Shown here: positions 23,021 to 36,751 of the stretch, piece after piece | Layout: each line of letters opens with the position of its first letter | Numbering within the stretch: position 1 is the stretch's first letter | Made by a program: the position numbers and the translations under genes | The notes under the pieces: model-generated | Told to the model about the DNA's origin: nothing | Database searches by the model: none | Seen by the model: the letters and a program-made list of their open reading frames with translations, nothing else | NCBI RefSeq assembly: GCF_022662195.1 | Contig: NZ_JAKMCS010000003.1 | Coordinates: 124,001 to 188,000 of the forward strand | Source: Aestuariivivens insulae | Lineage (GTDB): Bacteria; Bacteroidota; Bacteroidia; Flavobacteriales; Flavobacteriaceae | Length of the DNA: 64,000 bases | Direction of reading: 5' to 3'

Positions 23021-23098
23021 TTAACATTAAGGTAACATTTTAATGACACCGATTTAAAAATCGCTTAACACACGCATCATAATAATGCCCTTTATTTG
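23021..23098 (+). promoter_or_regulatory. Six-unit Pho-box-like array and -7 element
   Basis: Six 7-mers start exactly 11 bases apart: TTAACAT (23021), GTAACAT (23032), ATGACAC (23043), TTAAAAA (23054), TTAACAC (23065) and ATCATAA (23076). Eight bases later comes TTTATTTG (23091-23098), a degenerate -7 element. Seven-base direct repeats at 11-bp spacing with a nearby core promoter are the layout of PhoB-binding Pho boxes. The transcript would start near 23105, 15 bases before the ATG at 23120. The same geometry recurs at four other promoters in the next 7 kb. Confidence 0.7.
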
Positions 23099-23119
23099 CA
23101 AGTGATAAGTTTAAATCAA

Positions 23120-23515
23120 ATGAAGAACCTTTTATTAATCGCCGTATGTTTTGTTTCAGCCATAACTTTTGCCCAAAACAAGGGAACTATAAGTGGTACT
23201 TTAATGGACGACGACGCCATTAACGAGCCTTTGGTTTTTGCGAAAGTTAAGGTAAAAGAAACTGGAGCTGAGGTCTTATCGGACGACAAAGGTTTTTTTA
23301 AACTTGAAAACTTAAGTGAAGGAACCTACACTTTGGTTTGCAGCTTTGTAGGTTACGACAGCAAAGCGATTAAGGCCAACATAGTTAATGGTAAAACAAG
23401 CAACGTTAGATTATCTTTATCTGCAAGCACTATTTCCCTTGACGATTTAGCTCTTACATTGGCTAGTGCTGATAACGACACAAGCACTTCAAACACATCT
23501 TCGGTTACGCAGTAA
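23120..23515 (+). CDS. Secreted carboxypeptidase-like regulatory domain protein
   Basis: Starting at the ATG at 23120 the protein has a clean signal peptide (MKNLLLIAVCFVSAITFAQ); a longer frame from a TTG at 23096 would spoil it. The mature part is one carboxypeptidase regulatory-like domain (GTISGTLMDDDAINEPL ... GFFKLENLSEGTYTLVCSFV) and a short Ser/Thr-rich tail. This is the same domain that opens the TonB-dependent receptor encoded downstream, and the two share much sequence, but here no plug or barrel follows. It may be an accessory of that receptor. Its promoter carries a Pho-box-like array. Confidence 0.8.
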   Translation: MKNLLLIAVCFVSAITFAQNKGTISGTLMDDDAINEPLVFAKVKVKETGAEVLSDDKGFFKLENLSEGTYTLVCSFVGYDSKAIKANIVNGKTSNVRLSLSASTISLDDLALTLASADNDTSTSNTSSVTQ

Positions 23516-23710
23516 AATAAATCCTCCTCTTATTTATTAACCAGTATCTTTTTCATTTTTTCAGTAAAGGTTGCTAGCCTAAACTCTGTTCGCCCCTAAG
23601 TTCTCTTTTCCTTTTACACATTGAACTTTCCTTTATAAAATCTTAAATTCCAAAAGCAAAAATCCAATGTTAACTAATTGTAATCTATGCGTACTAGATC
23701 TGTTAACACG

Positions 23711-23788
23711 ATAACATTGAGCTAACACTTTTATTACGGTTCTTTAATCTCCAGGTAACACTAGGTTTACACAACGGCAGTTTCTTTG
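23711..23788 (+). promoter_or_regulatory. Six-unit Pho-box-like array and -7 element before the receptor gene
   Basis: Units at 11-base steps: ATAACAT (23711), CTAACAC (23722), ATTACGG (23733), TTAATCT (23744), GTAACAC (23755) and TTTACAC (23766). After eight bases comes TTTCTTTG (23781-23788). Total span and spacing are identical, base for base, to the array at 23021-23098, although most units differ in sequence. The first two and last two are the best matches. Start of transcription is expected near 23795, just before the receptor ATG at 23812. The rest of the 23516-23710 gap shows nothing I can support. Confidence 0.7.
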
Positions 23789-23811
23789 CGCCATAATTGA
23801 CATAAAAACTA

Positions 23812-26592
23812 ATGAGACATTTTATACTACTATTGGCGCTTTTAATAGCTTCGTTTTCAAGCGCTCAAAACACCGGAACCATCGCCGGAAAATTAACAGA
23901 CAAAGAATTTAACAACGAACCTTTAGCCTTTGCTAACGTTTTAATTAAAGGCACAACCAAAGGCACAACCTCAGATTTTGACGGTCTTTATGGTTTCGAA
24001 AATTTAGAACCAGGTAGCTATACCTTAGTATATAGCTTTGTAGGTTACGAAACCCGAGAAATAAACGTTGCTGTTGTTGCTGGAAAAGTATCGGAAGTTA
24101 ACGTAACTATGGCTGCCAGCGCCGCTTCTTTAGATGAAGTGGTGATAACCACCACTACCAAAAGAGAAAGTGAAACGGCCTTGCTATTGGAACAAAAGAA
24201 GGCGGTTGGTTTTAAAACAGCAATCGGTTCAGACGAGCTTTCAAGAAAAGGTGTTGGAGATGTTGCTACTGCAGTTACTAAAGTAACAGGTATTTCTAAA
24301 CAAGAAGGGTCTGGCAATATATTTGTACGTGGCTTAGGAGACCGTTATAATATTACAACTTTAAACGGATTGCCTCTCCCTTCAAACAATCCTTCCAATA
24401 AAAATATTGATTTAGATATTTTCTCAACAGACATTGTTGGGTCCATTGACATAGACAAGACCTATGACACTAAAAACTATGGTGATTTTGCAGGAGCAAA
24501 CATCAATATAGCCTCAAAAAACTATACTGGTAAAGGTATGGCAGAAATACAATTGGAATCTGGCGTTAGCACAAATGCTATTTCCCAAAAAGATTTTTAT
24601 TTAAACGATGGCCCTAATCAAACAGGTTTTTACTCAAAAACATATCCTGCTTTTCCTTTAAACAACTATAACTTTACAACAAGCTGGGACAGGGAAAAAG
24701 TTGGGACTCCAATAAATTCTGGGGCATCCTTAAAGTTGGGCGACTCTTACGTGATTAACGATGACACTAAAATTAATTTCTTTGGTGTTGCATCCTTTAA
24801 CAATGACTACGACTATAAAGAAGGAATCTCAAGAGGAAGTGTAAATGTCTCTGGTGTACCAAGAAAAGATTACACTTTTTCTAGTTACTCTTATAATACC
24901 AACACAACCTTAATGGGTAATGCAGGTATAAAATTCAAGGATCATAAGTTAAAATACAACGGATTATATGTAAATACTTCCAGCCAAGATCAAGATGAAT
25001 ATTTTGGTACGGTTGATGCCTTTGATTATGCTCCTGAAGGTGGCGCCTTTTTACAAAGACAAACTTTTGAAAGAACCCAACTTGTTGTACATCAAATTTT
25101 AGGTGACCATGAAATTGGTGAAAGTTTTGAAATTAATTGGGGAGCTTCTTACAACTTTGTTAAGAATAACATTCCTAACAGAAGACAAAATATCTTAACC
25201 CCTAATAATTGGGATGATCCAGAAGGCCCAAAGTCGTTTTTACAGACCAATAACGCGTCAGATAACCATAGATTCTATCAGGATTTAGAAGAAGAAGAAA
25301 TTGCTGCTAATTTTTCGGCTTCATATCATTTCAATAAAGATGAAGAAGACTCCTATAAAGGCAAAATAACTGTTGGTTATAGTGGAAGGTTTAAAAATGT
25401 AGATTTCGATGCTACCCAATTCAATTTCAGAATTAACAGAAAAGTATCTCAACCCTTAATATCTGATATCTATAACTTAGACAGCTATTTTAACCAAAAC
25501 AACCTAAATGCTGGTTTATTTAGTATTGAAACCTTTAGGGGGAACGCTTCTATTACCAATGCACTAGACCCTCAAACTTTTGATGGCCCTCAAGATATCC
25601 ATGCAGCCTTTCTTTCTTTAGAATATGCCTTAACTCCTAAACTTACAATGTTGGTAGGTGTAAGAGGAGAAAAAATAAGTCAGACGATAAATTGGAATAC
25701 TTCCCTATCGGCTGGATCAAGCGTGCTTGACGAAACCGAAATTTTACCGTCCTTGTCATTAAAATACCAATTGAACGACAAACAAAACTTAAAACTTGCT
25801 GCTAGTAAGACATACACTTTGCCTCAATATATTGAAAGAGCCTTTTTTCAATTTGTAGGTGCTACTCAATCATTTATAGGTAACCCTAGCTTATACGCTT
25901 CTACCGATTACAATGCCGATTTAAAATGGGAAATTTTTCCTAAAAACGGAGAGTTGATATCTATTGGAGCCTTTGGTAAATACATTCAAGACCCCATAAA
26001 CGAATCCATTATAAATTCAGCTTCAAATGATATTAGCTATGTGAATTCCGGTGATTGGGCCTTAGCCATTGGAGGAGAATTTGAAGCAAGAAAAAATATC
26101 TTTGAGAGTGATGACGAATTAAAAAACGACTTTTCTGTGGGCGTTAATGCTTCTTACATGTATACAAATCAGGAACTGGATAAAGACAAAGTTATCGAGG
26201 AAACCACAGCAGCAGGCTCCCCTATTAGTGTTGATTTTACAAACAAAGAAGATAAACTCTCTGGTGCCTCCGATTTATTATTAAATGCCGACCTTACCTA
26301 TACTAAAGAATATAAAAACGATAAAAGTATACAAACCACTATAGCTTACAACTATTTTTCAGACAGGGTATTTGCTTTAGGCACTGAAGGCAAAGGTGAT
26401 TTGATAGATAAAGGTATTGGTACTTTAGACTTTGTTTTTAAAAGCAAACTAAACAAAAACTTGGGTGTTAACCTATCAGCTAAAAACTTATTAAACCCCA
26501 CAATAGAAAGACATCAGGAAGTTCAAAATGTATTGGTTTCTTCCTATAAAAGAGGTGTAAATTTAAAACTATCCCTTATTTACAGCTTTTAA
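23812..26592 (+). CDS. TonB-dependent outer membrane receptor
   Basis: A 926-residue receptor: signal peptide (about 1-18), carboxypeptidase-like domain (20-110; GTIAGKLTDKEFNNEPLAFA), then a plug domain (about 120-235; FVRGLGDRYNITTLNGLPLP) and a 22-strand-type barrel to the C-terminus, ending in an aromatic strand (KLSLIYSF). These receptors import large or scarce nutrients using TonB energy. No SusD-like gene accompanies it. The neighbours are a homologous small secreted protein, a duplicated beta-helix lipoprotein and phosphate transporters, and the promoter has Pho-type repeats. Uptake of a phosphorus-containing compound is the reasonable guess; the substrate is unknown. Confidence 0.9.
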   Translation: MRHFILLLALLIASFSSAQNTGTIAGKLTDKEFNNEPLAFANVLIKGTTKGTTSDFDGLYGFENLEPGSYTLVYSFVGYETREINVAVVAGKVSEVNVTMAASAASLDEVVITTTTKRESETALLLEQKKAVGFKTAIGSDELSRKGVGDVATAVTKVTGISKQEGSGNIFVRGLGDRYNITTLNGLPLPSNNPSNKNIDLDIFSTDIVGSIDIDKTYDTKNYGDFAGANINIASKNYTGKGMAEIQLESGVSTNAISQKDFYLNDGPNQTGFYSKTYPAFPLNNYNFTTSWDREKVGTPINSGASLKLGDSYVINDDTKINFFGVASFNNDYDYKEGISRGSVNVSGVPRKDYTFSSYSYNTNTTLMGNAGIKFKDHKLKYNGLYVNTSSQDQDEYFGTVDAFDYAPEGGAFLQRQTFERTQLVVHQILGDHEIGESFEINWGASYNFVKNNIPNRRQNILTPNNWDDPEGPKSFLQTNNASDNHRFYQDLEEEEIAANFSASYHFNKDEEDSYKGKITVGYSGRFKNVDFDATQFNFRINRKVSQPLISDIYNLDSYFNQNNLNAGLFSIETFRGNASITNALDPQTFDGPQDIHAAFLSLEYALTPKLTMLVGVRGEKISQTINWNTSLSAGSSVLDETEILPSLSLKYQLNDKQNLKLAASKTYTLPQYIERAFFQFVGATQSFIGNPSLYASTDYNADLKWEIFPKNGELISIGAFGKYIQDPINESIINSASNDISYVNSGDWALAIGGEFEARKNIFESDDELKNDFSVGVNASYMYTNQELDKDKVIEETTAAGSPISVDFTNKEDKLSGASDLLLNADLTYTKEYKNDKSIQTTIAYNYFSDRVFALGTEGKGDLIDKGIGTLDFVFKSKLNKNLGVNLSAKNLLNPTIERHQEVQNVLVSSYKRGVNLKLSLIYSF

Positions 26593-26666
26593 CCTTTAGT
26601 TAACCTTAGAGTAATGAAATCATAAATTTTAGAACATGATTAGTTTACACTAGAGTTATTTATTTG
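26589..26666 (+). promoter_or_regulatory. Pho-box-like array and -7 element before the beta-helix lipoprotein gene
   Basis: Units at 11-base steps: TTAACCT (26589), TTAACCT (26600), GTAATGA (26611), ATAAATT (26622), a non-matching AACATGA (26633) and TTTACAC (26644). Eight bases later comes TTTATTTG (26659-26666), the same -7 sequence as at 23091. The span of 78 bases equals the two upstream arrays. The first unit overlaps the stop codon of the receptor gene, so the lipoprotein gene has its own promoter despite the tight packing. Only five of six units match, which makes this weaker than the first two arrays. Confidence 0.55.
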
Positions 26667-26698
26667 CTGAAAATTCAAAAAAACTAAAAAACAAAAAA

Positions 26699-28933
26699 AT
26701 GAAATTTAAAACCCAATTATTAACACTAATATTTGCAATAACAAGTTCAGCTTTTATTGTATCATGTACATCAGACGATAGCCCTAGCTATACTGCCACT
26801 TGTGGTGACGGCATTCAAAATGGAGATGAAACAGGAGTTGATTGCGGAGGATCTGCTTGCGAACCTTGTGCTGCAAATAGCACATTAGAAGGTGATGTAA
26901 CAGGAGATATAACTTTAGATGCTTCTATTGAATACCAATTAACTTCTGCTTATGTCGTAAGAGATGGAGCATCCTTGACCATTCCTGCTGGAACTGTCAT
27001 TAAAGCAACAGGAGGTACAGCAGCTTATATAGCTGTTGCTCAAGGAGGGAAGATTTATGTGCAAGGAACTGCAGACAAGCCCGTTGTAATGACCTCTGGC
27101 GCCACCTCTCCCGCTGCAGGAAACTGGGGTGGGTTAGTTGTATGCGGTAAGGCACCAACCAATGTCGCTATTGGTGGGACAACAGCAACTTCAGAAGTTG
27201 CCGACTTAACTTATGGAGGAAGCATAGCAAATGACAACTCAGGTTCCATTAGATACTTAAGAATTGAATACACAGGAGCTACGTTTACGAATGACAAAGA
27301 ATTTAACGGGTTATCTTTATTTGGTGTTGGATCGGGAACCACATTAGAGTATGTACAATCTTACGAAGGCGGGGATGACGGTATTGAGTTCTTTGGAGGA
27401 ACTGTTAACGGACGATACCTAGTTTCAACAAGAAGTGGGGATGACTCTATTGATTTTGCTGATGGATGGAACGGTACTGGTGAATATTGGTATATCTCAG
27501 AAGGAGCAAAAGCTGGTATTGAAGGCTCAAACAATGGCGATAACGGTGACGCTGCTCCAGTAACCAATGCCACGCTTAAAAATATCACAGTAGTTGGTCC
27601 TGTTGGAGAAGGAGCCCTATATTACAAAGAAGGTGGAGGAAATTTCAATATTGACAATTTCTATATTGCTGGTGTTAATTTAGGCGTAAAAGTAAAAGAT
27701 ACCGATGCAGAAGCAGGTGTTAGAATTGAAGCTGATAACTTAGTTATGACTAATGTTCAATTTGCTGAAAATACGTCTGGGTTTACTTATACCGATTATA
27801 CTGGAGCCAATCAAGATTTTATACAAGAAGGAATTGCAACAGGTGCCGGTAATGGTGCTGCCGCTCCAGATTGGGCCGCTGGATGGACCAAAGGCCTTGA
27901 TAACAGTGGTGTAACCAGTGAAAACTTAGCTGGTATAGTTACAGGAAATGTGTCATTAAATGCTTCTATTGAATATAAATTAACTAGCTCCTTTGTAGTA
28001 AAAGATGGAGGTTCTTTAACCATTCCAGCAGGAACTGTAATTAAAGCCACAGGAGGAACAGCTTCATATATTGCCGTTGCTCAAGGAGGTAAAATATTTG
28101 TAGAAGGTACAGCAACTAATCCGGTTGTAATGACCTCTGGAGCTGCATCTCCTGCAGCTGCAGATTGGGGTGGCCTAGTTGTTTGTGGCAAAGCGCCAAC
28201 AAATGTGACAGCACCAGCAACCTCTGAAGTTGCTGACCTAACATACGGAGGATCTATTTCAGACGACAATTCCGGTTCAATTAGATATTTAAGATTAGAG
28301 TATACAGGTGCTAACTTTACGCCAAACAAAGAATTTAACGGTCTATCATTATTTGGGGTAGGCTCTGGTACAACTGTTGAATATGTGCAATCCTACGAAG
28401 GTAGTGATGATGGTATCGAGTTCTTTGGAGGTACTGTAAATGGTAAATATTTAGTGTCTACCAACAGCCAGGATGACGGTATTGATTTTGCCGATGGTTG
28501 GGCTGGAACAGGAGAAAACTGGTATATTACTGGTGCCGCTAAAGCTGGTGTTGAAGGTTCTAACAACGGCGACAACGGTAATGCGACTCCTGTTACCAAT
28601 GCCACTTTAAAGAACATAACAGTTATAGGCCCTGTTTCTGAAGGTGCGCTTTACTATAAAGAAGGCGGAGGAAAATTCAATATTGATAATTTCTATACAT
28701 CTGGCATCAATTTAGGCATTAAAGTTAAAAGTACCGATGCTGAAGCAGCTGTAAGAATTGAAGCTGGAGATTTAGTAATCACCAACATAGAATTTGCAAA
28801 TCAGGCCACAGGTTTTAACGCAACAGATTACGCTGGAGCGAACCAAAGTTTCTATACTACAGGAACTGCAACTGGAGCTGGAAATGGTGCTTCTGCACCA
28901 GATTGGGCAGCTGGTTGGACAAAAGGTCTATAA
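26699..28933 (+). CDS. Lipoprotein of two fused right-handed beta-helix-like repeats
   Basis: A 744-residue lipoprotein with lipobox IVSC (Cys23) and a short Cys-rich module (CGDGIQNGDETGVDCGG) common at the N-terminus of Bacteroidota surface lipoproteins. Residues 62-400 and 407-744 are two copies of one domain, each starting near GDITLDASIEYQL or GNVSLNASIEYKL and ending DWAAGWTKGL. Gly/Asn/Asp-rich short strands (IPAGTVIKATGG, YVQSYEGGDDGIEFFGG) suggest a parallel beta-helix. Relatives I recall have one copy and are encoded next to TonB-dependent receptors. It probably works with the receptor at the cell surface; no catalytic site is recognised. A strong terminator follows. Confidence 0.8.
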   Translation: MKFKTQLLTLIFAITSSAFIVSCTSDDSPSYTATCGDGIQNGDETGVDCGGSACEPCAANSTLEGDVTGDITLDASIEYQLTSAYVVRDGASLTIPAGTVIKATGGTAAYIAVAQGGKIYVQGTADKPVVMTSGATSPAAGNWGGLVVCGKAPTNVAIGGTTATSEVADLTYGGSIANDNSGSIRYLRIEYTGATFTNDKEFNGLSLFGVGSGTTLEYVQSYEGGDDGIEFFGGTVNGRYLVSTRSGDDSIDFADGWNGTGEYWYISEGAKAGIEGSNNGDNGDAAPVTNATLKNITVVGPVGEGALYYKEGGGNFNIDNFYIAGVNLGVKVKDTDAEAGVRIEADNLVMTNVQFAENTSGFTYTDYTGANQDFIQEGIATGAGNGAAAPDWAAGWTKGLDNSGVTSENLAGIVTGNVSLNASIEYKLTSSFVVKDGGSLTIPAGTVIKATGGTASYIAVAQGGKIFVEGTATNPVVMTSGAASPAAADWGGLVVCGKAPTNVTAPATSEVADLTYGGSISDDNSGSIRYLRLEYTGANFTPNKEFNGLSLFGVGSGTTVEYVQSYEGSDDGIEFFGGTVNGKYLVSTNSQDDGIDFADGWAGTGENWYITGAAKAGVEGSNNGDNGNATPVTNATLKNITVIGPVSEGALYYKEGGGKFNIDNFYTSGINLGIKVKSTDAEAAVRIEAGDLVITNIEFANQATGFNATDYAGANQSFYTTGTATGAGNGASAPDWAAGWTKGL

Positions 28934-28956
28934 AGGATAACGGCTCATTAAAAAAC

Positions 28957-28993
28957 AAAAAGCATCCGCCTTGGCGGATGCTTTTTGTTTTTT
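28957..28993. terminator. Bidirectional rho-independent terminator
   Basis: AAAAAGCATCCGCC and GGCGGATGCTTTTT pair over 14 bases around a two-base loop, with T-rich sequence after it and A-rich sequence before it. It lies between convergent genes and can serve both. Close relatives of this hairpin (GCATCCGC core) occur at 33323-33354 and 36686-36715. Confidence 0.85.
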
Positions 28994-29007
28994 AACTTAC
29001 TATACTG

Positions 29008-29328
29008 CTATAGCGAAGCTACATTATCAGTATAATTGACGATCTTTTTTTCCCCGTCAATCCAATAAATCCATTTGCCGACTTTTTTACCATTATCATA
29101 ATTTGCCGAAACCGTTTTTTTGCCTTCTTTGTTAAAGCTTAACCACTCACCTTGTAATTTACCATCTAATGTGTAAAATCCTGTTTGACTTACAACACCA
29201 TTGTCATGATAATAAACCACTTCAATTAAATTGGTATCCTTGTTAAGCTTTAATTCTCTCTTTTGCTTGTCTTGGGCAAAAGCTACCACTGTAATTAAGA
29301 AGGCAAACAATAAAAATAATTTCTTCAT
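29008..29328 (-). CDS. Secreted MORN/YwqK-like repeat protein
   Basis: From the ATG at 29328 the protein has 106 residues with a signal peptide (KKLFLLFAFLITVVAFAQ); an earlier frame start would add 13 residues before it. The mature part consists of repeats such as YHDNGVVSQTGFY, GKLQGEWLSFNKEGKK and NGKKVGKWIYW, the YwqK/MORN-like pattern. These form small beta-sheets; despite the name YwqK antitoxin, most have no shown toxin partner. Its promoter has a perfect TATATTTG and, directly upstream, four 11-base-phased repeats in inverted orientation. It lies between the receptor/lipoprotein and porin genes. Confidence 0.75.
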   Translation of the reverse strand: MKKLFLLFAFLITVVAFAQDKQKRELKLNKDTNLIEVVYYHDNGVVSQTGFYTLDGKLQGEWLSFNKEGKKTVSANYDNGKKVGKWIYWIDGEKKIVNYTDNVASL

Positions 29329-29352
29329 AATTATGGGTTTTACATTATATAT

Positions 29353-29408
29353 CAAATATACAAACAACTTTACATTAAAGCAACATTATCTTAACGTTAA
29401 GTTAACAT
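29353..29408 (-). promoter_or_regulatory. Promoter with inverted Pho-like repeat array
   Basis: On the minus strand TATATTTG (29353-29360) is a full -7 match, with TTG 20 bases upstream (29381-29383). Starting eight bases upstream of the -7 lie four units at an 11-base period, but the TTAACAT-like sequence is on the plus strand: TTTACAT (29369), GCAACAT (29380), TTAACGT (29391) and TTAACAT (29402). No -7 element follows them in the plus direction. The regulator would therefore bind facing away from this gene; it could repress or act differently here. Confidence 0.5.
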
Positions 29409-29466
29409 TGGACCCGTAACCAGCTGACTTTCTTCACTGTATTTTTTAAAATTTAACATTACAATA

Positions 29467-29522
29467 TTAATGTTTACTTAATATTGGGGTTACATTTAAC
29501 TTAACTTGAACATTGATATTTG
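29467..29522 (+). promoter_or_regulatory. Pho-like promoter of a candidate small RNA
   Basis: Units at 11-base steps: TTAATGT (29467), TTAATAT (29478), GTTACAT (29489) and a poorer CTTAACT (29500). Eight bases later comes GATATTTG (29515-29522) in the position of the -7 element. The geometry is the same as at the protein-coding Pho-like promoters, but no open frame follows before a terminator at 29602-29632. Confidence 0.45.
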
Positions 29523-29526
29523 TGCT

Positions 29527-29632
29527 TGTCTTAAGACAAAACAATTAGTATATCATATAATCTATTAGTTTTTGTCGACTACATTATTATGATGCCTAAT
29601 GAGACTGCCTTTGGCCAAGGCAGTCTTTTTTT
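29527..29632 (+). ncRNA. Candidate phosphate-regulated small RNA (about 105 nt)
   Basis: This stretch starts seven bases after a -7 element with Pho-like repeats and ends in a strong intrinsic terminator. Near the 5' end TTGTCTTAAGACAA (29526-29539) can form a short hairpin; the middle is unstructured and AU-rich, a common layout for base-pairing RNAs. The only ATG-started frame inside would give 22 residues running through the terminator, with no sign of being coding. The porin gene has its own array further on, so this is not simply its leader. Expression is not shown by sequence alone. Confidence 0.4.
29602..29632 (+). terminator. Rho-independent terminator of the candidate small RNA
   Basis: AGACTGCCTT and AAGGCAGTCT form a perfect 10-base stem with a five-base loop (TGGCC), followed by seven T residues. 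No protein-coding gene on the plus strand ends just upstream; the nearest one ends near 28.9 kb and has its own terminator. Confidence 0.85.
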
Positions 29633-29635
29633 AAT

Positions 29636-29691
29636 TAAACTCAACAATAACAATTAGGAAACATTTAGTTAACATTGGTTTTAGTTCTTTG
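29636..29691 (+). promoter_or_regulatory. Pho-box-like array before the porin-PiT operon
   Basis: Units at 11-base steps: TAAACTC (29636), ATAACAA (29647), GAAACAT (29658) and TTAACAT (29669). Eight bases later comes GTTCTTTG (29684-29691), similar to TTTCTTTG at the receptor promoter. Transcription should start near 29698, about 20 bases before the porin ATG at 29718. The downstream genes are a phosphate-selective porin and a phosphate permease, which fits Pho control. Confidence 0.65.
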
Positions 29692-29717
29692 CAGCGACAA
29701 AAACTAATACTTATATT

Positions 29718-30926
29718 ATGAATACTAAATATACCTTAATAGGTATTTTAATACTTGCGGTTATCTCATTAAATGCGCAAGAGGTCCAATCTGGAAAATT
29801 CGGCAAAGGCTTATTCAACATCGTAGGAAAAGATAGTTCTTGGACTATGAAAGTTGGCTTAAGGGCACAACTGTTAGGCACCTCAACTTGGGGAGAAGGC
29901 GAAAGCAATGAAACCAGTTTTCTCGTTAGAAGATCAAGATTAAAATTTGATGGTTACGCCTATAGTCCTAAATTAAAATATAAAATTGAATTAGGGCTGT
30001 CCAACAGAGATCAATCTGGAGCTTCACTTTTTACCAGCAATGCGCCTAGATATATTTTGGATGCCGTTTTAATGTGGAACTTTTACGAAAATTTCGAAAT
30101 TTGGTTCGGACAAACCAAATTACCAGGAAACAGGGAGCGTGTTATTTCTTCAGCAAACCTACAACAAGTCGATCGTTCTCTATTAAACAAACGTTTTACT
30201 ATTGACCGCGATTTTGGTTTTCAGTTAAGACACCATTTTAATTTAACCGACAAATTTGTTGTAAAAGAAATATTTTCCTTAGCACAAGGTGAAGGCAGAA
30301 ACATAACAACAGGCAACCTTGGAGGTTATCAATATACCGGTAGGATTGAACTTTTCCCTTTTGGCACTTTCGCCAGCAAAGGCGATTATAAAGGTGGTGA
30401 TTTAAAACGTGAAAAACAACCTAAACTATCATTAGCAGCAAGTTACGACCATAATAACAATGCGGTAAAAACACGAAGTAACCAAGGCTCTTACATGGTT
30501 ACGGATACTGGCTTTTTTGAAACCAATATCAATACGCTTTTTATCGATGCCATGCTTAAATACCAAGGTTTTTCACTTATGGCCGAATATGCCGATAGGG
30601 ATGCTAAAGACCCATATGCCAAAAACTCTGATGGCTCTCCTTTATTAGATAGCAAAGGGAAACAAGTTGCTGTTCAGGTGGGCAAAGGTTTAAACCTTCA
30701 AGCTGGTTATTTATTCACCAACAATTGGGAAATATCTGCTAGATATACCAATATAGAACTAGATCAAACCATTACAGGCAAAAACCCTGAAAACCAATAC
30801 ACATTGGGCCTCTCCAAATACATAGTTGGACATAGCCTTAAAGTACAGACCGACATTAGCCATTTAGAAGTAGACGGCGGAAACAATGAACTAATGTATC
30901 GTTTACAGGTTGACATCCACTTTTAA
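29718..30926 (+). CDS. Phosphate-selective porin (OprO/OprP family)
   Basis: A 402-residue outer membrane protein with a signal peptide ending near LNAQ. The pattern FLVRRSRLKFDGYAYSPKLKYKIELGLS, then LMWNFYENFEIWFGQTKLPGNRERVIS, is that of OprO/OprP-type porins, 16-stranded trimeric barrels selective for phosphate or polyphosphate. The C-terminal strand LMYRLQVDIHF ends in Phe as expected for outer membrane assembly. The PiT gene follows after 39 bases, so the pair would move phosphate across both membranes. The promoter holds a Pho-like array. Confidence 0.88.
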   Translation: MNTKYTLIGILILAVISLNAQEVQSGKFGKGLFNIVGKDSSWTMKVGLRAQLLGTSTWGEGESNETSFLVRRSRLKFDGYAYSPKLKYKIELGLSNRDQSGASLFTSNAPRYILDAVLMWNFYENFEIWFGQTKLPGNRERVISSANLQQVDRSLLNKRFTIDRDFGFQLRHHFNLTDKFVVKEIFSLAQGEGRNITTGNLGGYQYTGRIELFPFGTFASKGDYKGGDLKREKQPKLSLAASYDHNNNAVKTRSNQGSYMVTDTGFFETNINTLFIDAMLKYQGFSLMAEYADRDAKDPYAKNSDGSPLLDSKGKQVAVQVGKGLNLQAGYLFTNNWEISARYTNIELDQTITGKNPENQYTLGLSKYIVGHSLKVQTDISHLEVDGGNNELMYRLQVDIHF

Positions 30927-30965: not shown

Positions 30966-33299
30966 ATGATATTTGCAAACATTTTACAATTAAACCCAAT
31001 GGATAATATCTATTTGTACATGATTATTGCACTAGCCATTTTAGCAATTGCCGATTTGGTTGTAGGTGTAAGTAACGATGCGGTTAACTTCTTAAATTCC
31101 GCTATAGGCTCTAAAGCCATTTCATTTAAAACCATCATGATAGTCGCTAGTTTAGGGGTAGCTGTAGGAGCTGTATTTTCCAGTGGCATGATGGAAGTGG
31201 CCAGAAAGGGTATTTTTAACCCTGGAGAGTTTATGTTTGATGAAATCATGATTATTTTCATGGCCGTTATGATAACGGACATCCTCTTGCTGGATTTCTT
31301 CAATTCGGTAGGGATGCCAACCTCTACTACGGTTTCTATTGTATTTGAATTATTAGGTGCGGCCGTGGCCATAGCCTTGATTAAAATAGGGCACGACGGT
31401 GGCAACTTTAGTGATGTTATAAACTATATAAACACCTCCAAGGCCTCCCAGATTATATTTGGCATATTACTCTCGGTGATTGTCGCCTTTACCATTGGCG
31501 CTATTATACAATGGTTCTCAAGACTTTTGTTGTCTTATAATTTTGAAAAGAAAGCGGCCTGGGTTGGTGCTTTATTTGGCGGTGTAGCTTTAACCGCAAT
31601 TACCTATTTCATTTTTATGAAAGGATTAAAGGGTACTTCTTATGCCAGCCAAAACTTTGATTTACTAGGCGGCAACACCATGAAAGACTTTCTAGAGGCT
31701 CAAGTACTTCCCATTGTTTTGGTAAGCTCTGTCTTTTGGTCTTTATTATCTTATGCTTTAATTAGCTTCTTAAAAACCAACATTTACAAACTCATTATAA
31801 TAGTAGGCACCTTTGCTTTAGCTTTAGCTTTTGCCGGTAACGACTTGGTTAACTTTATTGGTGTACCTGTTGCAGCCTATAATTCATTTTTAGAGTGGAC
31901 AGCTTCTGGTTTACCTGCATCCGATTTTTCAATGGGTGTGTTAGCCAAAAAAGTACCTACAAACAACTGGTTACTTTTTGGAGCCGGAATGATCATGGTT
32001 TTAACACTTTGGTTTTCAACAAAAGCTAAGAATGTAGTAAAAACATCTTTGGACCTATCAAGCCAAGGGGAAACCAAAGAACGCTTTCAACCAAACTTCT
32101 TATCAAGAGGATTTGTGAGATCTGCCATGTTAATGTCGCAAATGTCTTCATATATATTACCGGAATCGTGGCAAGCAAAAATTGACAAACAATTTGAAGC
32201 TCCCGTTATAAAATTAGCAAAGGACAAAAAATATGAATTACCTGCTTTCGATTTAGTAAGAGCCGCTGTAAACCTTATGGTAGCCGCTGTACTAATTTCT
32301 ATAGCTACGTCATACAAATTACCTTTATCTACCACCTACGTAACCTTTATGGTGGCTATGGGTACTTCCTTGGCCGATAGGGCTTGGGGTGCAGAAAGCG
32401 CCGTTTACCGCGTTGCTGGTGTTATAAACGTTATTGGAGGATGGTTTTTTACTGCAATTAGTGCATTTACTGCAGCTGCTTTAGTGGCCTACTTATTGAA
32501 TTTGAACGTAAGTATTATGTTCCCTATTCTGTTAGTAGTAGCATTCGCATTACTTATTAGAAGCACCATAGTACACAACAAAAAGTCTAAAGAAATCAAA
32601 GCCGAGGACAGCTTGATAAAAGCTGAAAGCAGCTCTATACAAGGTGTTATACATGAAAGTGCCAACAACATTGCTAATGTTGTAAAACGAGGTAACAAAA
32701 TATATACTACTGCCATAAACGGACTTGCCAAGCAAGATTTGGCCTTATTGAAAAAGAACAAAAAACAAATATTAAAACTCTCTGACGAAGTTGATGGTTT
32801 AAGGGACAATATTTTCTATTTCATTAAAAATTTGGATGAGTCCAGTGTGGGAGCAAGTAATTTCTATATTAATATTTTAGGGTACCTACAGGATATGACC
32901 CAATCTTTGGAATACATTTCCAAAGTAAGCCATAAACACGTAAACAACAACCATAAAAAATTAAAATTCAACCAAATAAAAGAACTAAAAGAAGTTGATG
33001 GCGATCTCGAAAAGCTACTAAACGAAATTAAAGAGGCTTTCGATACGCGTTCTTTTGAACAGATAGGATACATTTTAAATAATGAAAAAGCTATTTTTAG
33101 TGTTGTTTCCGAAAAAATCCAAAAACAGGTCGAGCGTACCCGCACCGAAGAGTCTAGCCCCAAGAACACGACACTTTACTTTGGTCTATTATTGGAAACC
33201 AAAGATTTGCTTACTGCCACTATGAATCTTTTAGAAGAATACCATAATGCACACGATGCATCGGTTAAGCCTGCTACAATAAGCACAGAAGAAGAGTAA
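30966..33299 (+). CDS. PiT-type phosphate transporter with fused PhoU-like domain
   Basis: A 777-residue inner membrane protein, longer than ordinary PiT transporters (about 400-500). The membrane part contains both PiT signatures, VVGVSNDAVNFLNSAIGSKA near the N-terminus and AFAGNDLVNFIGVPVAA in the middle, separated by the usual helices. From about residue 550 a soluble helical domain follows (KRGNKIYTTAINGLAKQDLALLKKN...), resembling PhoU/DUF47 proteins that tune phosphate uptake. Such PiT-DUF47 fusions are known in Bacteroidota. It imports inorganic phosphate with H+ or Na+ and is probably co-transcribed with the porin gene. A terminator follows at 33323. Confidence 0.92.
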   Translation: MIFANILQLNPMDNIYLYMIIALAILAIADLVVGVSNDAVNFLNSAIGSKAISFKTIMIVASLGVAVGAVFSSGMMEVARKGIFNPGEFMFDEIMIIFMAVMITDILLLDFFNSVGMPTSTTVSIVFELLGAAVAIALIKIGHDGGNFSDVINYINTSKASQIIFGILLSVIVAFTIGAIIQWFSRLLLSYNFEKKAAWVGALFGGVALTAITYFIFMKGLKGTSYASQNFDLLGGNTMKDFLEAQVLPIVLVSSVFWSLLSYALISFLKTNIYKLIIIVGTFALALAFAGNDLVNFIGVPVAAYNSFLEWTASGLPASDFSMGVLAKKVPTNNWLLFGAGMIMVLTLWFSTKAKNVVKTSLDLSSQGETKERFQPNFLSRGFVRSAMLMSQMSSYILPESWQAKIDKQFEAPVIKLAKDKKYELPAFDLVRAAVNLMVAAVLISIATSYKLPLSTTYVTFMVAMGTSLADRAWGAESAVYRVAGVINVIGGWFFTAISAFTAAALVAYLLNLNVSIMFPILLVVAFALLIRSTIVHNKKSKEIKAEDSLIKAESSSIQGVIHESANNIANVVKRGNKIYTTAINGLAKQDLALLKKNKKQILKLSDEVDGLRDNIFYFIKNLDESSVGASNFYINILGYLQDMTQSLEYISKVSHKHVNNNHKKLKFNQIKELKEVDGDLEKLLNEIKEAFDTRSFEQIGYILNNEKAIFSVVSEKIQKQVERTRTEESSPKNTTLYFGLLLETKDLLTATMNLLEEYHNAHDASVKPATISTEEE

Positions 33300-34451: not shown

Positions 34452-36224
34452 TCAGGCAGAACCATTACCATTGTCCTCGAACAATGCATCTTTCTTACCA
34501 TAAAGTAACTCTGCTACTTCTATCAACTTTTTTATCATATCATTTACATTGGCATAATCATTAAACAATGACGAGGCCATTTCAACAGTAATTAAATTTT
34601 TACGAATTAATTTATCAATAGATTTATTGCTCTGCCTAATATTGGTTTTGGCTTCATTCTTTAACTTTTTAAGTTTCAATTCGTGATTTTTACTATCATC
34701 CTCCTTCCTAAACAAATAGATTGTACGCAATACGTTAACCAACTTTTTTCTGTAGCTATCATATTCTTTAGCTAAATAAGCATTCTTAGTATTTAATGCG
34801 ATGGTAATATTTTTATTGAGCTCCCTGGCATCCTTAATGATTTCCACCATTTTTCTATTAGCAATCTTTATATCGGTAATAGCTTTGTTTTGCCTGTTAT
34901 TTAACTTTAAGGTACTCTGGGCTGTGGTGGCGTAGGTTATTATTTTACCGTAAATTGACTTAACTTTGGTATAGTATAAACCTTCTACATCAATATGGAA
35001 ATCGGTTTGGGATGTCTTAATGACAGTCTTCAACTTTTTATCCGATTTCACATCTTCCCTATGAATGCTTAAGGCATGTGTTACGATTTCAAAAACACTG
35101 TTTTGGTATAAATATTTAGACTCCTTAATTAATGCAGAAATAACCGTCCAGGGAAATCCTAAAACAGATGGGGTTAAATATTTAGGCTCATCAATATCCT
35201 TATCACCTTTTTCAATATAAAAACGCAACAAAGTCCGCTCAAGAACCTTAATAAAAGGGATCATTAAAACAACGCCCAATACATTAAAAAAGGTATGGAA
35301 CAACGCTAGTTTTAATGTATAATTAGTAGAGGCTATGTTTAGTAAATTAGAGGTGTTATTAACAAGATTGGCCAAAGGATAAATAAAAGCAATAGCGACC
35401 AAACCAGTTAGCACATTAAATATAAAATGTGCTGTTGCCAAGCGTTTTCCCGCACTATTGGAACTAATGGCCCCTAAAATAGCGGTTATGGTAGTACCTA
35501 CATTGGCTCCAATAGCCAAAGCCAAAGCATTTTCATACTCTATTTGTCCTACCGAAAGCGCCGTTAAAATCAAAGCCAGGGTAGCGCTGCTTGACTGTAA
35601 AATGGTGGTAATAATAATACCAAGTCCCGTATAAACAAAAACTCCCAAAAAACCGGATACCGCATATTGCGATAGGTCGATGTGATCTTTAAAAACATCG
35701 AACCCTTCTTTCATATAATGGATCCCCAAAAAGAAAAAGCCCAATCCTGCCAATATATTACCAAGACCTTTAAGCGATACTTTCTTCTGAAAGGAAAAAA
35801 TAATCCCAAAAACCAACATGGGCAATGCCAAGGCAGATATCTTGACTTTAAGCCCAAAACCAGCTACTAACCATGCGGTAGCCGTCGTTCCAATATTGGC
35901 TCCAAAAATAAGTCCCAGACCACCCGATAATGATATCAATCCGGCACTTATAAACGAAATGGTAATGACTGAGACCAACGAACTAGACTGTATTAAAGCC
36001 GTAACCAAAGCCCCAGTTGTAATACCCTTATAAAGCTTATTGGTTGCTGCCTTTAATATATTTTGAAGAGGTCCTTTAGTAAAAACCTTAAACCCTTCTT
36101 CCAGCATAATCATACCAAACAGTAATACTGCAACCCCAGCCGATATGGTTTCAAAGTTTGGATAGGCATAAAGCAAAATAGCCAAGACAAATAAAAGTCC
36201 GTAGAAAATAGACTTCCTAATCAT
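34452..36224 (-). CDS. Na/Pi-cotransporter family protein with PhoU-like tail
   Basis: A 590-residue membrane protein. The first 330 residues hold the two repeated NaPi-II/NptA halves, each with the QSSS motif (ALIQSSSLVSVI and TTILQSSSATLAL) that shapes the phosphate and sodium site, plus FGANIGTTATAWLV and IGANVGTTITAI. The last 220 residues are a helical PhoU-like domain. Bacterial members couple phosphate import or export to sodium. It is convergent with the OmpA gene and forms the right edge of the phosphate locus. I found no 11-base-phased repeats in the 140 bases upstream of its start. Confidence 0.9.
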   Translation of the reverse strand: MIRKSIFYGLLFVLAILLYAYPNFETISAGVAVLLFGMIMLEEGFKVFTKGPLQNILKAATNKLYKGITTGALVTALIQSSSLVSVITISFISAGLISLSGGLGLIFGANIGTTATAWLVAGFGLKVKISALALPMLVFGIIFSFQKKVSLKGLGNILAGLGFFFLGIHYMKEGFDVFKDHIDLSQYAVSGFLGVFVYTGLGIIITTILQSSSATLALILTALSVGQIEYENALALAIGANVGTTITAILGAISSNSAGKRLATAHFIFNVLTGLVAIAFIYPLANLVNNTSNLLNIASTNYTLKLALFHTFFNVLGVVLMIPFIKVLERTLLRFYIEKGDKDIDEPKYLTPSVLGFPWTVISALIKESKYLYQNSVFEIVTHALSIHREDVKSDKKLKTVIKTSQTDFHIDVEGLYYTKVKSIYGKIITYATTAQSTLKLNNRQNKAITDIKIANRKMVEIIKDARELNKNITIALNTKNAYLAKEYDSYRKKLVNVLRTIYLFRKEDDSKNHELKLKKLKNEAKTNIRQSNKSIDKLIRKNLITVEMASSLFNDYANVNDMIKKLIEVAELLYGKKDALFEDNGNGSA

Positions 36225-36751
36225 ATATATAATTTTTTTAGGAATATGAGTCTGAAGTTACCTGATAATTGGCTATTCATTCCACACATAGGCTATAACT
36301 TTATTGATATAAATATAGACATAATATCAAGAAAACAACTATTGAAAGAACATCAATAATTTAGTCATCCAACAGGATTTTGGAACCTGCTAACCAAGTT
36401 TCTTTCCTAAAAAAATAAATATTCGTGATTTGCCATTTCCACAAAGTCCTGACGTTTACAGTCATAACGGCTGAAAACAAAAGGGCTAAACATAGTTGAG
36501 TCTCATAAAATAATGAACATGATGGGATTCCTCCTCGTTTGCTCTGCAAAGTACTTTCAATCAAAATATATTTTGATTTCAGTAAGGTTCGTAATTGACA
36601 ACCTAACCTAAATCAAGTCTAAATCAATTCATTTTAAGTGTGTGAAAATCGAACTCAAGCCTATTGGTTCTTATATCGTTAAATCAAAAAAGCACCCGCT
36701 TGGCGGATGCTTTTTGTTCAACACTTAATAAAATAGTGTTCCTATTAAGAT
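36225..36751. other. Gene-poor gap between the Na/Pi transporter and nrdA genes
   Basis: About 527 bases without a supported gene. The left 140 bases are AT-rich upstream sequence of the Na/Pi gene. At roughly 36400-36560 lies compositionally different sequence (GAGGAATCCCATC, ATGAGACTC) that may be a remnant of a dispersed repeat. A 67-residue frame on the minus strand there (36361-36564) shows no family features and was not annotated. The right end holds the nrdA terminator. Confidence 0.5.
36686..36715 (-). terminator. Rho-independent terminator of nrdA
   Basis: Read on the minus strand: AAAAAGCATCCGC, loop CAA, GCGGGTGCTTTTTT. One G-U pair makes the stem continuous in this direction, whereas the plus-strand reading has a mismatch, so it serves the leftward nrdA gene. 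Confidence 0.8.

Follow-up and report, generated by a model that had tools for sequence, protein, structure and literature searches.

How does a member of the Flavobacteriaceae call up its phosphate genes from promoters whose core elements are poor? This question is raised by a gene cluster of Aestuariivivens insulae that includes a phosphate porin and a phosphate transporter, and in which short repeats recur upstream of several genes at steps of 11 bp. The cluster was analysed within a stretch of 64 kb (positions 124001-188000 of contig NZ_JAKMCS010000003.1) of the 4.23-Mb genome; this whole stretch is called the window below, and coordinates without a contig refer to it. Comparison with relatives makes it quite likely that the repeat arrays are the Pho boxes of the Flavobacteriaceae and that one of them, array D, drives a small RNA (sRNA) that would pair with the start of the porin messenger RNA (mRNA), thereby probably braking translation.

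A first-pass annotation of the window had reported 7-mers resembling TTAACAT or GTAACAC at 11-bp steps in five places, and they were found at all five, on the plus strand. Array A (23021-23098; TTAACAT, GTAACAT, ATGACAC, TTAAAAA, TTAACAC, ATCATAA) is followed after 8 bp by the -7 element TTTATTTG and stands before the gene at 23120. Array B (23711-23788; ATAACAT, CTAACAC, ATTACGG, TTAATCT, GTAACAC, TTTACAC; 8 bp; TTTCTTTG) precedes the gene of a TonB-dependent receptor at 23812, and array C (26589-26666; TTAACCT, TTAACCT, GTAATGA, ATAAATT, AACATGA, TTTACAC; 8 bp; TTTATTTG) the gene at 26699. Array D (29467-29522; TTAATGT, TTAATAT, GTTACAT, CTTAACT; 8 bp; GATATTTG) belongs to the sRNA promoter and array E (29647-29691; ATAACAA, GAAACAT, TTAACAT; 8 bp; GTTCTTTG) to the porin promoter. 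The gap of 8 bp between the last unit and an 8-mer ending in TTTG is seen in A, B, C, D and E alike. A, B and C have six units each and, with the -7 element, a common span of 78 bp; D and E are shorter. Units A4, A6 and C3-C5 are poor; in array C three of the six phased units are good, and unit 1 shares bases with the stop codon of the TonB receptor gene. The consensus of the -7 element in Bacteroidota is TAnnTTTG (PMC9723704). The replacement of TA by TT, given in the first-pass annotation for all these promoters, applies to A, B and C; E has GT and D has GA. The poor element is kept in relatives, TA being present in only one of 35 aligned promoters.

Counts within the window are weak evidence against chance. 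With one mismatch allowed, 23 pairs of units lie 11 bp apart on the plus strand, other lags giving 6-27 pairs, and the top scores for runs of three, four and six units fall on the plus strand at A, B, E and at an inverted array (D2, described below), with none listed at C or D. Genome-wide, three phased units with at most two mismatches gave 11 matches against two for the reversed pattern, three of the 11 lying in the window (A, E and D2). The exact pair TTAACAN5TTAACA gave seven matches against one in the control, none of them at arrays A-E, and TAACAYN5TAACAY gave eight against two, including A and B. Outside the window, the clearest run has four units (two overlapping matches) and lies between phoB-phoR and a gene of type IX secretion system (T9SS) type. 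Because lag 11 was not outstanding in the window, relatives were compared, and conservation was the decisive test of whether the arrays are real. Homologues of the porin and of the TonB receptor were taken from 60 genomes including our own, and 29 upstream regions of each, our own excluded, were searched for TAACAY with at most one mismatch, with 40 dinucleotide shuffles as control. The TonB receptor promoters held 41 pairs at lag 11 against a shuffle mean of 2.15 (maximum 8) and five on the minus strand; the porin promoters (300 bp, including part of array D) held 37 against 2.2 (maximum 6) and four on the minus strand. At the sRNA promoters, lag 11 was counted 122 times in 76 loci, compared with 8 and 13 for lags 10 and 12 and 15 for the minus strand. 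The position is fixed as well: units pile up 22, 33, 44, 66 and 77 bp from the TTTG end in the TonB set (28 regions used; lesser peaks at 85 and 96 bp) and 22, 33 and 44 bp from it in the porin set (29 used), and 64 named porin leaders have 55, 61 and 26 units at these three distances. The commonest bases of the three proximal units are TTAAC(A/C)T, GTAACAT and TT(A/T)ACAT. The repeats are thus conserved far beyond chance.

The Pho box of Escherichia coli and the PhoP box of Bacillus subtilis consist of direct 7-bp half-sites at 11 bp that overlap the -35/-33 region of a weak core promoter. The arrays described here have the same build: direct 7-bp half-sites with a period of 11 bp, at a fixed position by a weak core promoter, cover the -35/-33 region before phosphate genes. 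Their units do not correspond to the E. coli consensus CTGTCAT; they read TTAACAT/GTAACAC, form arrays of up to six and keep a fixed gap of 8 bp to the Bacteroidota -7 element. The Bacillus half-site TTAACA is closer, and the letters of Pho boxes differ in other phyla too. The targets also differ from those of E. coli and Bacillus, being a TonB receptor, a lipoprotein, a porin and a PiT transporter.

Are phosphate genes singled out genome-wide? The first-pass annotation had proposed a scan of the genome with a period-11 matrix, and the outcome spoke in favour of its reading. A model of 56 bp (R3), for which only promoters of relatives (35 in all) were used, was applied to our own genome and ranked the porin array E first (40.9 bits), the TonB array B second (34.7 bits) and an array in the intergenic region of phoB third (20.0 bits). 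The fourth match (L289, 16.5 bits) lies about 0.5 kb before phoB, over the 3' end of the T9SS-type gene, with no gene of its own. D2 was sixth at 15.5 bits, level with the fifth, and array A eighth, its upper part scoring 14.4 bits and its lower part 7.9 bits. At E<=10 the list also contains many weak matches of other kinds. Ten further genomes outside the training set, chosen from the list of sRNA carriers, gave 27 matches at E<=0.01, of which 23 were in the cluster or at phoB. Nine lie upstream of the porin, nine upstream of the TonB receptor, two upstream of a CarbopepD_reg gene and one upstream of a relative of the 744-aa protein encoded behind array C; the rest comprise one at phoB, one just behind the porin and four without an assigned gene. 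The matches at the porin were expected, because the genomes had been picked from the sRNA list; the others were not. Genome-wide, the array stands before phosphate genes, namely porin with PiT, TonB receptor, phoB and a gene for a PlcP-like enzyme. Model R1, built from A, B and C only, was discarded as overfitted: it returned its own training sites and then the PlcP-like promoter at 16.7 bits. Among the matches that were inspected, which are not all 32 of R3, eight matches of R1 or R3 (L031, L032, L033, L034, L290, L294, L295 and L296) had no convincing promoter. A further R3 match (L292, E 0.12) is situated about 90 bp upstream of a 5'-nucleotidase pair, yet within the body of a different gene.

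The regulator gene beside the phoB array points to PhoB as the binding protein. Its product is matched best by TIGR02154 (PhoB) and by NF053854, the PhoB model of Bacteroides, and a search of the PDB placed it in the OmpR/PhoB family, with nothing beyond. phoB was matched in 53 of the 60 genomes, our own included. Forty-two genomes have both phoB and a TonB-receptor match; if the best match of each genome is taken (identity as low as 29%), 17 of them have it no more than 5 kb away from phoB. Twelve of these 17 show the two genes in divergent orientation, at most about 320 bp apart, with the array in between. The period also persists at phoB loci that have the receptor elsewhere: their intergenic regions hold 36 pairs at lag 11 against a median of 6, the arrays facing away from phoB (25 loci including our own, of 30 phoB loci fetched). 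In our own genome two T9SS sorting-domain proteins of 108 and 268 aa (L024:181-1416, contig C30), one of them weakly similar to a lamin-tail domain, are encoded divergently from phoB behind this conserved array and are likely Pho targets. The gene of the PlcP-like metallophosphoesterase (L299; C32:84167-85114, minus strand; PF12850) has, as judged by eye, a six-unit array with the 78-bp span and the -7 element GTTATTTA. PlcP promoters of 26 loci gave 16 pairs at lag 11 (median 2, minus strand 3), distant relatives being mostly without an array. Published data fit this picture. On phosphate depletion of Flavobacterium johnsoniae, log2 changes of 8.0 and 9.9 were reported for the TonB transporter and the lipoprotein of the phoBR cluster and of 8.6 for PlcP (PMC8115612). 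PhoB of Bacteroides fragilis binds the pstC promoter (PMC3547664), and the motif obtained by DAP-seq for PhoP of Riemerella, likened by its authors to that of E. coli ArcA, has TTTAACA as its most conserved letters (PMC9603813). Taken together, the genome-wide specificity, the link to phoB, the context of phosphate genes and the conserved phase strongly support the Bacteroidota Pho box proposed in the first-pass annotation, with the arrays as putative PhoB sites.

Some observations count against this assignment. R3 scores low at C (9.4 bits) and D (8.1 bits), and conservation of array C was absent from the 29 relatives examined (three pairs at lag 11, median lag 2). The PhoB protein stays below the curated cut-offs of both families (220.5 of 296.2 bits for TIGR02154, 212.8 of 270 bits for NF053854). 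In F. johnsoniae, OprP of the phoBR cluster showed no induction (-1.3, not significant; PMC8115612), and according to the discussion of its authors the Riemerella 'PhoP' may not answer to phosphate (PMC9603813).

The stretch at 29527, behind array D, had been described as gene-free in the first-pass annotation. This does not hold: conservation, a terminator and an antisense match indicate a conserved sRNA gene on the plus strand (29529-29632, ends approximate). It contains a 5' palindrome TTGTCTTAAGACAA, an antisense segment TATTAGTTTTTGTCG (29563-29577) and an intrinsic terminator (29603-29632), GACTGCC...GGCAGTC followed by seven T, in which seven of the eight consensus pairs show compensatory changes among 20 sequences. 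A covariance model (R2) of the sRNA matched 123 of 249 family genomes at E<=0.001; this cut admits false matches, our own genome also matching on the opposite strand at 3e-4, and a stricter count was therefore added by hand from the table (109 of 249 at E<=1e-6). An exact 31-base pattern was found in 67 named records, including Algibacter, Tamlana, Olleya, Lacinutrix, Flavivirga, Mariniflexile and Seonamhaeicola, and a run of five T stands at the expected terminator end in 54 of the 66 that are long enough. A search of Rfam 15 with 29300-29760 at E<=5 gave no match on the sRNA strand and two weak ones (E 1.5 and 4.5) on the other. A coding reading was rejected, no conserved frame being seen by eye in the alignment (A3). 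The gene is non-coding and conserved and has a promoter and an intrinsic terminator of its own; this is the make-up of a regulatory sRNA, which we predict it to be. One genome (G167) carries two copies about 117 kb apart (L162, L163), with the same leader and gene start downstream of both. In seven other cases (L160, L176, L185, L193, L207, L209 and L211) no matching porin leader lies within 330 nt of the sRNA copy; such copies may act in trans only or on another target.

What would this sRNA act on? In the window, its antisense segment is a perfect 15-nt reverse complement of CGACAAAAACTAATA (29695-29709, plus strand), with which the leader of the porin mRNA presumably opens; CGACAAAAACTAATA starts 3 nt behind the porin -7 element and ends 8 nt before the start codon. 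The five most distant of 30 porin loci being left out, the pair of segments is present in 20 of 25, about 110-210 bp apart. An exact 8-nt core is found at the expected place in 76 of 81 sRNA loci, and in 64 of the 66 named loci long enough to judge the antisense core stands directly behind TTTG, the other two having it without an exact TTTG match. The longest perfect matches reach 21 nt (L180, L189). Covariation was studied in the sRNA loci together with the porin loci (88 pairs, 80 distinct). In a matrix of double changes over the 80 distinct pairs, in which the true register was compared with all other position pairs to allow for descent, the changes peak in register, by row and by column, at positions -5, -3 and -2. 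G-U accounts for seven of eight non-Watson-Crick pairs at -1 and 12 of 21 at +8. The predicted duplex with the porin leader (-27.1 kcal/mol) is the best of 29 leaders in the window. A base-pairing sRNA is expected to show conserved complementarity with compensatory changes, and the alignments show this here, with the porin mRNA as predicted target. Further targets were sought with GACAAAAACTAA, which occurs six times in the genome against five for the reversed control, none of the four other sites lying in a porin-like leader. The leader of the TonB receptor behind array B was considered as a second target, as it contains AAAAACTAATG and has the second-best duplex energy, and was rejected: the relatives inspected do not keep AAAAACTAATG.

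The case for pairing is weakened in several respects. The constancy of the 8-nt core is in part a matter of construction, since the core was the search key; two loci (L183 and L201) have the variant core TTTTAGTC, and eight of the 76 core loci, one of them at a contig end, have no matching leader within 330 nt. Complementarity at the six variable positions (5.09 in own pairs against 4.58 in swapped ones, with none of 20,000 shuffles as high) and the longest perfect match (14.35 own against 13.29 swapped, maximum 13.7 in 300 swaps) both speak for pairing but ignore kinship among the genomes. In the matrix of double changes, +8 holds the row maximum without being the column maximum, and -4 and -6 have no in-register peak. 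Sliding the register gave 27 of 63 cells at offset 0 and 35 at -1, and in the converse test 27 of 69 at 0 and 40 at +1; registers were not separated, probably an effect of invariant A and T columns, which find partners at other offsets as well. Against one fixed sRNA sequence, all six further positions were matched in 28 of 64 named leaders; as the named loci share the sRNA letters by choice, this counts against tight covariation. Finally, at least 10 of 3,000 random 46-mers beat the porin leader in RNAduplex, some of them overlapping the sRNA's own complement.

The following mechanism would account for these findings. We infer that, when phosphate is scarce, phosphorylated PhoB binds the repeats head to tail, one subunit per 11 bp and on one face of the helix, so that a six-unit array would take up three dimers. 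PhoB would cover the -33 place and hold RNA polymerase on a poor -7 element (TTnnTTTG or GTnnTTTG), turning on the TonB receptor, its companion lipoprotein, the porin with the phosphate transporter, the PlcP-like phosphodiesterase and the genes linked to phoB. From array D, an RNA of about 100 nt with its own terminator would be made, adding an sRNA to the regulon. Its antisense segment would form a duplex with the opening ~15 nt of the porin mRNA, leaving about 8 nt up to the start codon. The presumed leader is short (~23 nt), so a duplex over its first 15 nt would most likely hinder translation initiation. PhoB would then turn on the porin and its brake together, in an incoherent feed-forward loop.

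Other explanations have to be weighed against this one. The repeats might be due to chance or to a compositional periodicity of AT-rich intergenic DNA, as the modest lag-11 excess of the window alone would allow; conservation in relatives and the specificity of R3 refute this, and we give it practically no weight. More serious is the idea that the arrays bind another regulator of the OmpR family, for instance one like ArcA, RprY or PorX, for which phosphate genes would be only some of the targets. Many regulators of this family bind direct repeats, and the weak R3 matches of other kinds in our own genome would suit a broader regulon. The ArcA-like motif of Riemerella PhoP, whose targets, as far as listed in the sections available, are not mainly phosphate genes (PMC9603813), points in the same direction. 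Nevertheless, 23 of the 27 strong matches in ten genomes are confined to the phosphate cluster and phoB, and phoB itself adjoins an array and, in 17 of 42 genomes, the receptor; a regulator other than PhoB therefore appears rather improbable.

With PhoB retained as the probable binder, the sense of the sRNA's action can be questioned. It might activate the porin, pairing at the 5' end preventing decay or freeing the ribosome site, so that both Pho signals would have to coincide. The duplex would cover the presumed 5' end of the mRNA and stop about 8 nt before the start codon, the sRNA and the porin are under the same type of switch, which would fit a coherent loop, and two proteases of Flavobacterium reach their full mRNA levels only with the sRNA Rfp18 (PMC9723704), which shows that sRNAs of the family can act positively. 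On such a very short leader, however, a duplex should rather hinder the loading of ribosomes, and activation is in our opinion possible but the less favoured outcome. It could also be supposed that there is no trans-acting sRNA, the inverted copies being DNA sites for a looping protein or, with read-through from D, pairing inside one leader. The two segments are indeed only about 110-210 bp apart in the 20 loci, and their middle hardly varies, as in a protein site, although partly through the way the search was built. Yet a conserved intrinsic terminator and the porin's own conserved promoter lie between the segments, the true register stands out for double changes at -5, -3 and -2, and departures at -1 are G-U in seven of eight cases (12 of 21 at +8). 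We regard this explanation as unlikely, and a brake on porin translation as the better account.

One array was absent from the first-pass annotation. D2 (29369-29408) is inverted and reads TTTACAT, GCAACAT, TTAACGT and TTAACAT on the plus strand; a gap of 8 bp separates it from TATATTTG (29360-29353), the canonical -7 element in the minus-strand promoter of the gene of a 106-aa, probably exported protein (29008-29328, minus strand). As inspected by eye, the units and the 8-bp spacing are kept in seven of seven relatives and CAAC of the second unit in six of seven. This CAAC would provide the GTTG of the -33 element on the minus strand, about 20 bp upstream. D2 (with the promoter, 29353-29408) may thus be an operator for repression of the 106-aa gene by PhoB, or else a reversed activator site. 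The protein has no family match, yet it is a neighbour of the sRNA in relatives, with homologues 71-88% identical beside eight of nine porin promoters. For the most extended proposal, a family-wide PhoB feed-forward loop in which twin arrays serve the porin and a same-strand sRNA limiting its translation while D2 represses the minus-strand gene, we see about an even chance.

How does this system compare with known ones? Riemerella anatipestifer also belongs to the Flavobacteriales. Its PhoP is an OmpR-family regulator with a TTTAACA core that binds upstream of its own operon; it was tied to virulence and aerotolerance, and the available sections of that study describe no 11-bp arrays, fixed promoter distance or phosphate regulon (PMC9603813). 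The phoBR cluster of F. johnsoniae (PUSIV) likewise unites phoBR, TonB transporter, lipoprotein and OprP, and PlcP is induced there, whereas OprP is not; the terms Pho box, promoter, motif and sRNA are absent from the main text of that study (PMC8115612). A survey of marine bacteria, including Bacteroidetes carriers of PlcP, marked putative Pho boxes, likewise predicted PhoB sites, before plcP clusters (PMC4796936). Our literature search, mostly outside subscription journals, found no letters of a Bacteroidota Pho box, six-unit layout or fixed distance, the Riemerella motif excepted. The idea of the Pho box is known from other phyla; new here, as far as the literature was searched, are its letters, its six-unit layout and its fixed distance in Bacteroidota.

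Among sRNAs, MicF and MicC repress porins, and NcS25 of Burkholderia and the cis-encoded sRNAs of Bacteroides are reportedly further cases for comparison. The transcriptome of Flavobacterium psychrophilum yielded 85 new RNAs, Rfp18 being one of the Rfp RNAs, which, like the sRNA described here, are short and conserved, with their own promoter and terminator and predicted pairing to mRNAs (PMC9723704). Our sRNA differs in lying on the same strand directly before its predicted target, in its predicted pairing at the presumed 5' end of that message and in having a response-regulator box in common with the target; a relative of it could be among the Rfp RNAs. No phosphate sRNA of Flavobacteriaceae was found in the same, mostly non-subscription literature. 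If the proposal is true, no sRNA of the phylum that is regulated by phosphate would, as far as literature searches show, have had a defined target before this one. It would add a base-pairing regulator with one predicted target to a family in which few targets are defined. The arrays would provide a concrete Bacteroidota Pho box, with a half-site, a period, a distance and a model that singles out the phosphate cluster genome-wide. The promoter code of Bacteroidota is unusual, and the arrays suggest how promoters with a defective -7 element become strong on demand. In parts of the sea growth is limited by phosphate, and the sea is presumably home to most of the named sRNA carriers.

The genes of the cluster complete this description. 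The product of the gene behind array A, starting at 23120 on the plus strand, is a CarbopepD_reg protein of 131 aa, and array B is followed by the TonB-dependent receptor (23812-26592, plus strand; PF00593 and PF07715). Behind array C, a protein of 744 aa (26699-28933, plus strand) with a tandem repeat of two similar halves and a lipoprotein-like N-terminus has no match in Pfam or NCBIfam; by its position it corresponds to the lipoprotein that F. johnsoniae induces on phosphate starvation. The phosphate porin and PiT transporter named in the first-pass annotation have family matches: the porin (29718-30926, plus strand) belongs to the Porin_O_P family (PF07396, E 3.7e-8) and is followed by a PHO4/PiT phosphate transporter (30966-33299, plus strand; PF01384, E 2.5e-30). 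A Na/Pi cotransporter (34452-36224, minus strand) adjoins the cluster and may sit outside the regulon, since the R3 match at its start (36240-36270) is weak, at 7.2 bits. In one relative (L360, genome G085, C1:644749-644800), the porin is immediately followed by an extra array, which might be a switch belonging to the next gene.

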